IMG/VR virus record: IMGVR_UViG_3300017746_000189
Location: 1-22,136 of that record
Strand: one strand, 5' to 3'
Origin: a virus
DNA length: 22,136 nt
Of the stretch, positions 36 to 4,244 are shown in pieces (the first letter of the stretch is position 1; each line of letters opens with the position of its first letter). The notes under the pieces were generated by a model that saw nothing but the letters and a program-made list of their open reading frames with translations, had not been told where the DNA came from and did no database searches. The position numbers and the translations under genes were made by a program.

Positions 36-199
36 TTTGATTTTGTGTTAGTTGGTTCCACAATCTTGACCGTCCACCCATCAGGACACCAGTCCACAGC
101 GTGTTCGAGTGCAAGGTCCAAGGTGTATGCGAGGAATTTCTCCTCTCTCCAATCGTCGCGGTCATGGCCACGATAGTACGTCATAAGGTATTCGTTCAT
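32..199 (-). CDS. Small acidic/aromatic protein, 55 aa, unknown function
   Basis: The frame starts at ATG 199-197, overlaps the stop of the upstream gene by four bases (ATGA) and ends at TGA 34-32. The product begins MNEYLMTYYRGHDRDDWREE and continues with an ALEHAVDWCPDGWTVKIVE segment, so it is rich in Asp, Glu, Trp and Tyr and looks like a small folded alpha/beta protein. No family is recognised. The ATGA junctions at both ends, with a consistent reading direction, support a genuine translationally coupled gene in the leftward operon. Small acidic proteins of this kind are typical of phage early regions, but that role is inference. Confidence 0.65.
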   Translation of the reverse strand: MNEYLMTYYRGHDRDDWREEKFLAYTLDLALEHAVDWCPDGWTVKIVEPTNTKSK

Positions 200-564
200 A
201 GGTAGATGGATTTGCTGTTAGCAAAGTCGAAGATGGCTTTCTCCTTGCGAGCCTTCGCAAGTTCAAGCGCCACGTACTTGGACCGAACAATATCAGAGAG
301 TTCGAGGTATACTCGACCTTCGTCGACCCAACCCCCAATCACCTGGGTGTCCCGATCGAGTGAGGAGGCTACGAGGCCGTTCATCACTTTCTCAAAGTGA
401 ATGAAAGAAAGGCTTTCGTTGTCGATTTCAAAGGGCTTGAAATCTTGCGCTCCGCCTACTGCATAGCCGCCTCCGTTGTATGTGTGAAGCTTGTCGATTC
501 CGACTGGTCGGACGCTGAACCCCTCTCCGCTTTGGAGTAGGTGGTATAAAGAAATTGTTGTCAT
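196..564 (-). CDS. Phage/plasmid-type hypothetical protein, 122 aa
   Basis: The preferred start is ATG 564-562, giving a product that begins MTTISLYHLLQSGEGFSVRP. A GTG at 594 would add ten residues, but it lies inside the hairpin at 591-606 and upstream of the shared CAAACTTCA leader, so it is less likely. The C-terminal part (GGWVDEGRVYLELSDIV, then ALELAKARKEKAIFD) resembles a small hypothetical family I associate with plasmids and phages, whose members end in a Gly-Trp-Val...Val-Tyr-Leu-Glu segment and a helix followed by an aliphatic strand. That comparison is from memory. Function is unknown. The start codon sits in a short hairpin (561-573) and the stop overlaps the next gene by four bases. 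Confidence 0.75.
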   Translation of the reverse strand: MTTISLYHLLQSGEGFSVRPVGIDKLHTYNGGGYAVGGAQDFKPFEIDNESLSFIHFEKVMNGLVASSLDRDTQVIGGWVDEGRVYLELSDIVRSKYVALELAKARKEKAIFDFANSKSIYL

Positions 565-606
565 CGTAGATGAATTGAAGTTTGATACTGACACCCCGAA
601 GGGTGT
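561..606 (-). promoter_or_regulatory. Structured leader of the 122-aa gene
   Basis: Read in the mRNA direction, this leader holds an ACACCC-TTCG-GGGTGT hairpin (606-591), whose loop is a C(UUCG)G tetraloop in RNA. Next comes CAAACTTCAATTCA (about 584-571), and then a mini-hairpin TCATC-TAC-GATGA (573-561) that contains the ATG. No Shine-Dalgarno sequence is present. The same order (hairpin, CAAACTTCA motif, start codon in or near a second hairpin) recurs before the gene at 886-1392, so it is probably a translation-control element. That function is inferred. Confidence 0.5.
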
Positions 607-645
607 TTCGCCTATACAAGGCTCATCAGAGTACCTGTACTGCTT

Positions 646-786
646 TCAGCAGTCAATCAAGTCGGCCAGAGTCATCTGCTCGTCGCAGGTCAGCTCGTCC
701 CACTCGGATGTGGAGGTGAGCAAGTCGAAGTCGAAAGAGGAGGTCAGGAGGTCAGCAATTAGCTGACGGCGTAGGTTCTTGTCCAT
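646..786 (-). CDS. Small acidic protein, 46 aa, unknown function
   Basis: The frame starts at ATG 786-784 and ends at TGA 648-646. The product starts MDKNLRRQLIADLLTSSFDF and then carries a Ser/Thr/Asp/Glu-rich helix-like stretch ending in DEQMTLADLIDC. It is strongly acidic after a short basic N terminus. The gene is preceded by AAACTTCAATTTAAACCC (about 812-795), the leader motif shared with two neighbouring genes, which supports the start. The stop lies in a perfect hairpin (ACTGCT-TTC-AGCAGT, 639-653). I do not recognise a family. An acidic miniprotein in a phage early region could bind a host factor, but nothing in the sequence proves this. Confidence 0.65.
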   Translation of the reverse strand: MDKNLRRQLIADLLTSSFDFDLLTSTSEWDELTCDEQMTLADLIDC

Positions 787-800
787 GATGGAAAGGGTTT

Positions 801-815
801 AAATTGAAGTTTGTT
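801..815 (-). promoter_or_regulatory. CAAACTTCAATT leader motif
   Basis: On the minus strand this segment reads AACAAACTTCAATTT, about 15 nt before the ATG at 786. It nearly matches the leaders of the genes starting at 564 (ATCAAACTTCAATTCA) and 1392 (ATCAAACTTCATAATTCA). As no Shine-Dalgarno sequence is seen, it could be a ribosome-recruiting or regulatory 5' leader element. Confidence 0.5.
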
Positions 816-818
816 ATT

Positions 819-878
819 GAGAGGTTAAGTGTATATACTCTCTTCACTCTGTTCAGAGAGTATATACACGTAACTCTC
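819..878. repeat. Long inverted repeat, 15-bp perfect core extended to about 23 bp
   Basis: The left arm 829-843 (GTGTATATACTCTCT) is perfectly complementary to 855-869 (AGAGAGTATATACAC) across an 11-nt loop. The pairing extends outward with one mismatch (828/870), three more pairs, a bulged G at 824, and GAGAG/CTCTC (819-823/874-878). The element lies between the stop of the 168-aa gene (886) and the leader of the 46-aa gene. It could be a terminator without a U tract, a dimeric repressor operator, or an RNA-processing hairpin. The sequence does not decide between these. Confidence 0.85.
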
Positions 879-885
879 TAAAGGG

Positions 886-1392
886 TTAGAAGGGTCGGTC
901 AGTGCTATCTTCGATAGCAGAACTCAGAGACGTAGTCTCCATGTGTACAGCCAAGCACTGCGTCAAGGCCTCAATCTTAGCTTCCAAGGAAGCTACTCTG
1001 TCAGTTTCACTGACACCTGAAGCCACTTGCTTGGCCTTCAGCTTCGCTGTCTTCTTGACTGCCTTCTTGGCATCCATCTCTTTCAGAGATGCTTGAGCAT
1101 CTTCTACTGAAGATGTCTTAGCCTTCTTCGAAGGCTTAACGGGACCAACTTCGTTGGTTCGCATGGCTGCCTTGTCCATGTGGTCGGCAGTCCGCTGAGC
1201 CGCTGTCCGCTTGGCCTTGCGACGACGCTTCTTCGACTTGGCCTTCGGCTTGTCCTTAACCTCTTCGAGGTTAGAGATGAAGTCCATCGCTTCTTGCAGA
1301 AGCTTCGCGGCCTCGGCTTTGCGGGCTGCAGTTGGACGGAAGGTGGCTTGGTTGACTGCCTTACGGCAATCGGAAAATTGAAAGTTATTCAT
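886..1392 (-). CDS. Lys/Ala-rich basic protein with C-terminal coiled coil, 168 aa
   Basis: The start is ATG 1392-1390, preceded by the CAAACTTCA leader and a promoter-like element at 1468-1436. An in-frame extension to 1596 is open but runs through the hairpin region and promoter, so it is rejected. Residues 1-45 form a helical N-terminal part. Residues about 46-65 are extremely basic (KDKPKAKSKKRRRKAKR), and residues 90-130 alternate Lys with Ala as in histone-H1-like proteins. The C terminus (SETDRVASLEAKIEALTQCL) predicts a short coiled coil. Binding to nucleic acid is a reasonable inference; no family is recognised. The coding DNA is packed with perfect hairpins (903-1303), so codon choice here appears constrained by secondary structure. 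Confidence 0.75.
   Translation of the reverse strand: MNNFQFSDCRKAVNQATFRPTAARKAEAAKLLQEAMDFISNLEEVKDKPKAKSKKRRRKAKRTAAQRTADHMDKAAMRTNEVGPVKPSKKAKTSSVEDAQASLKEMDAKKAVKKTAKLKAKQVASGVSETDRVASLEAKIEALTQCLAVHMETTSLSSAIEDSTDRPF
903..1303. repeat. Dense GNA-triloop hairpins inside the 168-aa gene
   Basis: Perfect hairpins occur at 903-919 (TGCTATC-TTC-GATAGCA), 927-939 (GAGAC-GTA-GTCTC), 978-995 (TAGCTTCC-AA-GGAAGCTA), 999-1015 (TGTCAGT-TTC-ACTGACA), 1076-1090, 1087-1102, 1098-1115, 1120-1136 (AGCCTTC-TTC-GAAGGCT), 1144-1158 (ACCAAC-TTC-GTTGGT), 1257-1273 (TAACCTC-TTC-GAGGTTA) and 1289-1303 (GCTTCT-TGC-AGAAGC). On the minus (mRNA) strand the TTC loops read GAA and the TGC loop reads GCA. Neighbouring hairpins sometimes share an arm (1087-1115). 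Confidence 0.85.
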
Positions 1393-1418
1393 TGTAAATG
1401 AATTATGAAGTTTGATTC
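1387..1418 (-). promoter_or_regulatory. Start-codon hairpin and leader of the 168-aa gene
   Basis: On the minus strand, ATTCATT-TAC-AATGAAT (1403-1387) forms a 7-bp hairpin whose 3' arm contains the ATG (1392-1390). Just upstream is ATCAAACTTCATAATTCA (1417-1400), the leader motif shared with two other genes. Before that, TCGGC-GATGTT-GCCGA (about 1434-1419) can form another stem. Sequestering the start codon would suit regulated translation (inference). Confidence 0.55.
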
Positions 1419-1435
1419 GGCAACATCGCCGACTC

Positions 1436-1468
1436 CAAAGATACGGCAAAGTTCTCCACAATTCCAAA
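1436..1468 (-). promoter_or_regulatory. Bacteroidetes-type promoter for the leftward genes
   Basis: On the minus strand, TTTG (1468-1465) is followed after 21 nt by TATCTTTG (1443-1436). This matches the Bacteroidetes primary sigma consensus of a -33 TTTG/TTG and a -7 TAnnTTTG. Transcription would start around 1430, giving a 5' leader of about 40 nt that holds the GATGTT-loop stem and the CAAACTTCA motif before the ATG at 1392. Confidence 0.65.
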
Positions 1469-1490
1469 TCTGAGGACCCTAATAATAAAG

Positions 1491-1830
1491 TTCCCTTAAG
1501 GGAAAAAAGGGGATTAGCGTCATGCCGTTTCCTACGCATTATGCAACGAAACCCCGCAGGAAACCTTCGGTTTCGTGAGGTGAAGAGCCTCGACAATGCT
1601 ACCCCTTTAGGGGTGTTAAGATTTCATAACCCACCGTAGGTGATGGATTGTCCTTCCCTTCGGGACAACGCATTACGCTGTATCGGTTACACCGATTGAT
1701 GAACCAATCAGTTCTAACTGACTGCAAGTCAGAAGCTTGGAGGTCATTACCTAAACCAAGAATCTAACTTCCTAAGAAGTTAGGGGGAGGGGGGTTCGAG
1801 AATCCGTTTCGGATTCTTATGCGTAGCGCA
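1491..1830. repeat. Intergenic hairpin cluster
   Basis: Successive perfect inverted repeats occur at 1491-1504 (TTCCC-TTAA-GGGAA), 1560-1574 (GAAACC-TTC-GGTTTC), 1601-1614 (ACCCC-TTTA-GGGGT), 1648-1668 (nested, with inner CCC-TTC-GGG), 1682-1696 (ATCGGT-TAC-ACCGAT), 1708-1721, 1718-1732 (CTGACT-GCA-AGTCAG), 1736-1760 (nested), 1764-1783 (CTAACTTC-CTAA-GAAGTTAG), 1799-1817 (AGAATCCG-TTT-CGGATTCT) and 1820-1830. They follow each other almost without a gap from 1682 to 1830, so the DNA or RNA could fold into a string of mini-hairpins. The sequences differ, so this is not a CRISPR or an ordinary repeat family. Confidence 0.85.
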
Positions 1831-1970
1831 CACGTATATATATAATCCCCCAGATAAACATTTCTCACCATTTTTTTCAGGGTCGTGATCGCGCTTGACT
1901 TCGTTATCTTCCCTTCAAATACATGACAATCAGTTAAATGCGGTACTTTACTTAACGTTTTGCTAGAGTA

Positions 1971-2001
1971 TTGACTTTTAAAGATTTCTGTTATACCTTT
2001 G
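1971..2001 (+). promoter_or_regulatory. Bacteroidetes-type promoter, rightward
   Basis: TTGAC (1971-1975) is followed by TACCTTTG (1994-2001), a good -33/-7 pair with 20 nt between TTG and TA. The start site would be near 2007, giving a leader of about 150 nt before the ATG at 2158. A second -7 box lies at 2145, so the rightward virion genes may have tandem promoters. Confidence 0.55.
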
Positions 2002-4220: not shown

Positions 4221-4244
4221 AAAAGGGCCCTCACGGGCCCTTTT
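4221..4244. terminator. Strong bidirectional intrinsic terminator
   Basis: AAAAGGGCCC-TCAC-GGGCCCTTTT is a perfect 10-bp inverted repeat with a GC-rich core, flanked by A and T runs. It works as a Rho-independent terminator in both directions and lies between the converging genes ending at 4197 (plus) and 4263 (minus). Confidence 0.9.

Follow-up and report, generated by a model that had tools for sequence, protein, structure and literature searches.

A conserved array of minimal hairpins across the putative early region of uncultured viruses

Small DNA hairpins have so far been known as single sites, with the promoters of bacteriophage N4 as the best-studied case. The N4 hairpins have a 7-bp stem and a 3-nt loop with a sheared G:A pair and are extruded by gyrase-driven supercoiling; they lie near the genome end that enters first, where an injected polymerase reads them in their extruded form (PMC4496689). 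Here we describe a dense field of hairpins of much the same shape at one end of a 22,136-base virus contig from IMG/VR (the window, meaning the whole stretch of DNA analysed). The field occupies positions 131-1830, runs through coding and non-coding DNA, and recurs around the same gene in every related locus we found.

Perfect hairpins in this field greatly exceed chance expectation. With loops of 3-5 nt, there are 35 hairpins with stems of at least 5 bp (dinucleotide-shuffle mean 5.1), 23 with stems of at least 6 bp (1.3 +/- 1.1 and a maximum of 4 in 200 dinucleotide shuffles) and 13 with stems of at least 7 bp (0.4 in shuffles, maximum 3); a non-overlapping list that admits loops of 2-5 nt holds 31. 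An earlier note on this DNA had reported about 35 hairpins, 11 of them with stems of 7 bp or more, and our recount of 35 and 13 agrees well with it, as does our finding that the stems are unrelated in sequence and placed in coding and non-coding DNA alike. Bins of 500 bp contain 4-8 hairpins each within the field and 0-3 in the rest of the window, where the remaining 20.3 kb has a mild excess (27 hairpins with stems of at least 6 bp, 14.5 expected). The minus-strand gene at 886-1392, which we call the field gene, contains 10 hairpins compared with 1.0 when its synonymous codons are shuffled; in 39 relatives the same shuffling within genes reduces the total from 429 to 48, and in 38 of these 39 genes the count lies above all 60 of the gene's own codon shuffles. 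Thus, with both kinds of control, dinucleotide and codon, hairpin density falls far below that observed.

Relatives were collected by a search with the 886-1392 protein (13 loci) and by an alignment search (63 IMG/VR loci). All are metagenome contigs whose hairpin counts are not independent of one another, and because all were found via the field gene, a field lacking that gene would be missed. Hairpin counts are raised around the homologous gene, in the same place, in 63 of 63 loci, so the field is bound to one gene and genome position rather than peculiar to this contig. The most distant relatives have weaker fields, with 3-10 hairpins in the peak 500 bp, the lowest value coming from a locus that its contig end truncates after 136 bp. 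Four long contigs have the field at this place only, and none of their other 500-bp stretches reaches five hairpins. Across 52 non-redundant loci, the 600 bp ahead of the gene contain 11-13 hairpins per kb and the two gene halves 24 and 20 per kb, after which density declines through 11, 8, 6 and 4 per kb to the background of 2-2.5; in relatives the fading to background is complete about 1.4-1.8 kb past the first ATG. One contig alone has a second dense stretch, upstream of the usual field (L073:2500-3500, with 7 and 15 hairpins per 500 bp).

The earlier description of the elements as small perfect hairpins is correct, but the real unit is narrower, with a stem of about 7 bp and a loop of 2-4 nt, mostly 3. 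Stem counts peak at 7 bp (203, 343, 397, 109 and 26 stems of 5, 6, 7, 8 and 9 bp); beyond this length they drop by the factor of about 0.25 expected of chance extension, whereas background stems drop from 5 bp on. Relative to sequence outside the field, loops of 3, 2 and 4 nt are enriched 30-fold, 11-fold and 6-fold, and loops of 6-8 nt are near background. Of 153 triloops from ten fields, 141 are closed by a C-G or T-A pair, and so are most unique triloops, upstream and in genes alike. Among triloops with stems of at least 6 bp and such closing pairs, 394 of 627 (63%) have a GNA loop on either strand, compared with 1020 of 7077 sites (14%) that match the closing pair alone. Beyond the closing pair and a weak bias beside the loop, no stem or flank consensus was found, and the stems share no repeat of the kind that characterizes REP- or BIME-like palindromes. 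A flanking promoter motif around the hairpins was sought and none was found. Helical phasing was likewise rejected, as spacings in the coding part peak near 23, 31 and 42 but power at 10.5 is not raised, and the positions are inherited.

Several features of the unit bear on whether the structure resides in DNA or in RNA. C-GNA-G triloops, together with loops of the types CNNG, GNNA and TTTA, have unusual stability in DNA, and all of them are common in the field; TTCG, a favourite loop of RNA, occurs a single time in the entire binned set. In stems interrupted once, G.T mismatches number 18 and A.C mismatches 29 when at least 7 positions are required, and 36 and 52 when at least 6 are required. 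At 22 aligned sites in 31 genes, where sequences had to keep at least 4 of 6 pairs, the inner pairs are 92% Watson-Crick, 1.0% G.T and 1.9% A.C. A third comparison gives 30 G.T and 59 A.C. If transcripts were selected, G.U would be expected to replace G-C and A-U freely, and it is mainly because G.U is not tolerated that we place the structure that matters in DNA, not RNA, as judged from these pairing patterns. The hairpins could instead act in the early mRNA, in stability, shielding or translation control. The field starts near a candidate start signal, so it is perhaps largely transcribed, and some hairpins overlap start codons. Yet G.T is never above A.C, UUCG loops are almost absent and, as described below, loops flip to their reverse complement, all of which makes such a role, including the RNA shielding proposed earlier, very improbable.

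Comparison of relatives reveals how the hairpins evolve. One site reads taacctc-GAA-gaggtta, caacctc-GAA-gaggttg or tgacctc-GAA-gaggtca in different relatives, and another ctcagct-GAA-agctgag or ctgagct-GAA-agctcag; some sites persist while the meaning of the codons shifts, for example between SETD and NEVD. The alignments thus indicate that hairpin shape has long been kept while the letters, and even the encoded protein, changed. Amino-acid conservation does not differ between hairpin codons and other codons of the field gene (0.78 and 0.76). In 22 close pairs of relatives, which overlap in membership so that the rates are descriptive, change per base is 0.074 in stems, 0.126 in spacers and 0.172 in loops. 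These pairs contain 78 compensated and 85 single pair changes, and 18 of 101 loop changes are the exact reverse complement of the loop; compensated changes are present even at about 3% divergence. The slow stems speak for selection; the inverted loops and the speed of compensation suggest real folding of the hairpins in DNA, perhaps with each hairpin templating its own repair. Selection and self-templated repair are compatible, and both can be true. The earlier note had proposed selection for local structure or a mutational process creating it, and the conserved positions, the compensatory changes, the slow stems and fast loops, and the exact loop inversions all sit well with that proposal. 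Neither outcome that the note had named as refuting, a similar hairpin density in shuffled controls or stems in relatives that lack conservation and compensation, was observed.

Alternatively, the field may have no function. A region that is often single-stranded could accumulate perfect hairpins by mutation alone, as hairpin-templated repair or template switching corrects one arm against its partner and flips the loops. At low divergence stem changes are indeed often already compensated, and loops flip whole, as in the minute inversions of plastids. However, stems change more slowly than spacers, the excess stops sharply at 7 bp, and sites hold their place in relatives whose protein identity is as low as about 50%, including where residues have changed. 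We therefore consider a purely mutational origin improbable.

The genomic setting of the field is that of a divergent early and late region (Table 1). The viruses are uncultured and appear to have bacterial hosts, as deduced from their relatives and promoters. The window encodes a terminase (PHROG 6681), a portal protein (PHROG 6547), a virion structural protein (PHROG 13704) and two tRNA genes, and an Rfam search of the window returned the two tRNAs and no other structured-RNA family. The terminase is related to those of cultured marine flavobacterial phages (about 31-50% identity) and, more weakly, to those of crAss-like phages. The flavobacterial relatives, namely Elemovirus, Pervagoviridae phi38:1, Pachyviridae phi13:2 and Gundel_1, Maribacter phage Panino and isolate ctfjg026, lack the field gene and, with no more than 3-5 hairpins per 500 bp, a hairpin field as well. 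From about 2.1 kb the plus strand carries structural genes, downstream of the promoter at 1971-2001; to the left of this promoter lie three minus-strand genes (886-1392, 646-786 and 196-564). In longer relatives these three begin a second arm, which also encodes a primase/helicase and exonuclease VIII and which, by analogy, would be the early arm. A block conserved on the early strand, GTGGGGATTATATATA, has one close copy in each of four contigs, about 20 nt before the first hairpin, and could be the early start signal. From there the field extends over a leader of some 450 nt and, without sparing the start codon, across the first early genes.

Table 1. Features of the hairpin field and its surroundings, in window coordinates; hairpins are given by stem length and loop length or sequence
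Feature	Positions	Strand	Remarks
Hairpin field	131-1830		downstream side possibly cut by contig end
Promoter, Bacteroidota type	1971-2001	+	TTGACTTTT...TTATACCTTTG; conserved; points away from field, into structural genes
Conserved block	1837-1852	-	(TG)GGGGATTATATATA; ahead of first hairpin; candidate early-arm start signal
First early gene (field gene)	886-1392	-	168 aa; field densest here
Second early gene, small ORF	646-786	-	46 aa, MDKNLRRQLIADLL...; relatives with similar leader and start
Third early gene	196-564	-	122 aa; weak match to PHROG 17808 (unknown function)
First hairpin, 8 bp, loop 3	1799-1817		AGAATCCG AAA CGGATTCT on minus; kept in relatives, stems changed
Hairpin, 8 bp, loop 4	1764-1783		
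Overlapping hairpins	1708-1732		1708-1721 (6 bp, loop 2) and 1718-1732 (6 bp, loop 3)
Hairpin, 6 bp	1682-1696		loop GTA on minus
Hairpin, 6 bp, loop 2	1601-1614		
Hairpin, 6 bp	1560-1574		loop GAA on minus
Hairpin, 6 bp, loop 2	1491-1504		
Hairpin, 7 bp, loop 3	1387-1403		spans field-gene start codon; conserved
Hairpin, 6 bp	1289-1303		loop GCA on minus
Hairpin, 7 bp	1257-1273		loop GAA on minus; site in 31/31 aligned relatives, stem co-varies
Hairpin, 6 bp	1144-1158		loop GAA on minus; codons TNEVG
Hairpin, 7 bp	1120-1136		loop GAA on minus; 29/31 relatives
Three overlapping hairpins	1075-1115		1075-1091, 1087-1102 and 1098-1115
Hairpin, 7 bp	999-1015		loop GAA on minus; SETD/NEVD codon swap in relatives preserves hairpin
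Hairpin, 8 bp	978-995		TT loop (CTTG on minus); 28/31 relatives
Hairpin, 5 bp, loop 3	927-939		21/31 relatives
Hairpin, 7 bp	903-919		loop GAA on minus; 30/31 relatives, 9 different inner arms
Hairpin, 5 bp, loop 4	877-890		
Hairpin, 6 bp, loop 5	751-767		
Hairpin, 6 bp	639-653		loop GAA on minus; covers small-ORF stop codon
Hairpin, 6 bp, loop 4	591-606		
Hairpin, 5 bp, loop 3	561-573		covers third-gene start codon
Hairpin, 6 bp, loop 2	499-512		
Hairpin, 8 bp, loop 5	424-444		
Hairpin, 7 bp, loop 3	384-400		
Hairpin, 7 bp, loop 4	244-261		
Hairpin, 6 bp, loop 3	211-225		

Other elements accompany these genes. The early-gene leaders share AAACTTCA closely upstream of the ATG and are often preceded by a repeated element of about 90 bp, which contains a 15-20 bp inverted repeat ending in GAGAGTATATACAC. 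Leader and element sites lie at 802-874 and, on the minus strand, at 583, 812 and 1413 of the window, and at 41.2, 42.4, 43.6 and 44.6 kb of contig G001; the inverted-repeat arms in the window are at 824-843 and 855-874. Element and leader together are possibly a repeated early promoter or a promoter-terminator unit. Between convergent genes, a 10-bp GC-rich hairpin at 4221-4244, AAAAGGGCCCTCACGGGCCCTTTT, is probably a terminator. Two loci encode giant virion proteins of about 2450-2800 aa with an LPD38 polyvalent-protein domain (L106:37-7401 and L103:15-8417), and a 2088-aa neighbour of these proteins weakly matches the C-terminus of the crAss muzzle protein. We also considered a genome terminus at the field, as 44 of the 63 contigs stop within 4 kb on the downstream side of the field gene, compared with 1 within 4 kb on the upstream side. 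We claim no physical genome end, because the contig ends are spread, the long contig G003 closes by overlapping ends, and the early arm contains repeats; these repeats of about 90 bp are a likely, though unproven, assembly cause of the downstream contig ends.

This setting raises the possibility of a replication origin or priming zone, in which replication forks would arise close to the first early gene and the hairpins would lie in DNA that becomes single-stranded, at the starting point of a primase-helicase or a primer-making polymerase. Consistent with this idea, the field sits in the main divergent region of the genome, the primase/helicase and exonuclease VIII genes are in the early arm, and the GC-skew minimum of four contigs falls in that arm, about 0-6 kb from the field in contig coordinates, although divergent transcription by itself shifts GC skew. 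In addition, GNA in unique triloops favours the gene strand within the coding part (42 v 18) but the opposite strand upstream of it (21 v 32; Fisher p 0.0014). Coding composition accounts for part of this shift (2140 v 1498 trinucleotides), and here too the hairpins of relatives are not independent. The strand switch at the gene start, strong on raw counts, becomes modest on unique hairpins once coding bias is considered, and we treat it as a hint only. On this evidence we judge an origin rather unlikely.

A second possibility centres on the field gene itself. Its product is a basic, Lys/Ala-rich protein with a two-helix N-terminus and a conserved KKRRRK tract; the predicted structure has a confident two-helix start and low overall confidence (pTM 0.28). 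The protein has no match in PHROG, Pfam or INPHARED, and 101 pattern matches in bacterial genomes included no relative. In many relatives its tail reads D-x-(L/V)-PF, sometimes then EL, and resembles the acidic tail of single-strand binding proteins. The protein is also a mosaic (L003-L102), with certain blocks (RQEMANKTNEVGP and SQEKAFHGKADSP, or SLKEMDxK and SAKAVSEATGAAQ, for instance) swapped from one relative to another as though they were cassettes. Such a basic helical protein might bind the hairpins by shape, thereby organizing, protecting or partitioning the early region and regulating its own gene. Hairpin density peaks in the field gene, the field always accompanies the gene, and the KKRRRK tract and, in many copies, a D-x-x-PF-like C-terminal tail are present. 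Nevertheless, no DNA-binding fold is recognized, the predicted model scores poorly, and the association of gene and field may be positional only, given that all loci were found through the gene; a binding array is thus unlikely.

The array, its conservation at a single genomic position, the shape of its unit and its evolution as a DNA structure follow from the counts and alignments above; for what the field does, we infer by analogy. Our preferred but still tentative explanation is a selected, DNA-level array of minimal hairpins that, like those of N4 but through shape alone, extrudes or folds in the early region and helps to load the early machinery. The unit would be any perfect stem of 6-7 bp with a C-G or T-A closing pair and a loop of 2-4 nt, often GNA on one strand. 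In an entering or newly supercoiled genome, the early region may be underwound or single-stranded, allowing the units to extrude or fold as N4 promoter hairpins do. A run of units would then hold the stretch open and label it by shape alone, and early phage machinery, whether an injected or early polymerase or a primase-helicase, would load there, such that the first early genes are expressed or copied first. The single-stranded replication or entry region suggested earlier is possible and is not separated from this preferred explanation. We think it on balance probable that the field is a shape-only code, that is, dozens of sequence-free 7-bp mini-hairpins across regulatory and coding DNA that are accommodated by the protein and act via extrusion or folding.

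Our findings may have wider significance. We found no comparable array in Rfam, PHROGs, Pfam, INPHARED and open-licence papers, though one may be described elsewhere. A conserved, strongly selected array in coding DNA would make DNA shape alone a dense genetic signal, one that can dictate codons and even amino acids. The field also offers a natural test bed for short cruciform formation in living cells, for which the 63 relatives supply built-in mutants in the form of compensated stems and flipped loops. Furthermore, the statistic that defines the unit, an excess of 7-bp stems and 3-nt loops with no excess of G.T, could be applied to all viral genomes in the search for other arrays.

Coliphage N4 (Schitoviridae) is the closest described system. 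Both have the 7-bp stem and 3-nt loop, GNA-type loops, a position in the early region and a structure formed in DNA, and the field conforms to the N4 shape of a 5-7 bp stem with a 3-nt loop. A sheared G:A loop pair could form in the 63% of triloops with GNA on one or the other strand, not in all units. Several differences weigh against the explanation that we prefer. N4 has three early promoters upstream of genes, with conserved bases from -17 to +1, and a 3500-aa virion RNA polymerase; the field has dozens of units of unrelated sequence rather than a few sites upstream of genes, most of them inside genes and densest in the first, and displays no promoter-like consensus in stems or flanks. A search for the single-subunit RNA_pol family gave no match, though it recognized no control either, and motif scans of the giant proteins identified no virion RNA polymerase. 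The giant proteins yielded only the LPD38 domain and PHROGs without polymerase annotation, and a PDB search produced nothing useful. Reverse-transcriptase systems (diversity-generating retroelements and retrons) were also set aside, with RVT_1 in 0 of 8 long contigs and controls matched in 3. The earlier reading of the hairpins as promoters therefore holds for their shape, which fits N4 early promoters, but the conserved bases are missing and the hairpins are far too many.

Other systems share parts of this picture. The F-plasmid single-strand promoter and integron attC sites are likewise recognized through the fold of a single strand and not by sequence alone, but they are single, longer, imperfect hairpins served by dedicated enzymes, not arrays of minimal perfect ones. 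In plastid minute (hairpin-loop) inversions, loops between inverted repeats flip to the reverse complement between relatives as they do here, although those hairpins are scattered, single and usually in spacers, with no conserved array or unit length. Because N4 has conserved bases and three promoters, and no N4-type polymerase is recognized here, we do not assign the field to the N4 class; rather, its hairpins may form as those of N4 do but recruit by shape and number.

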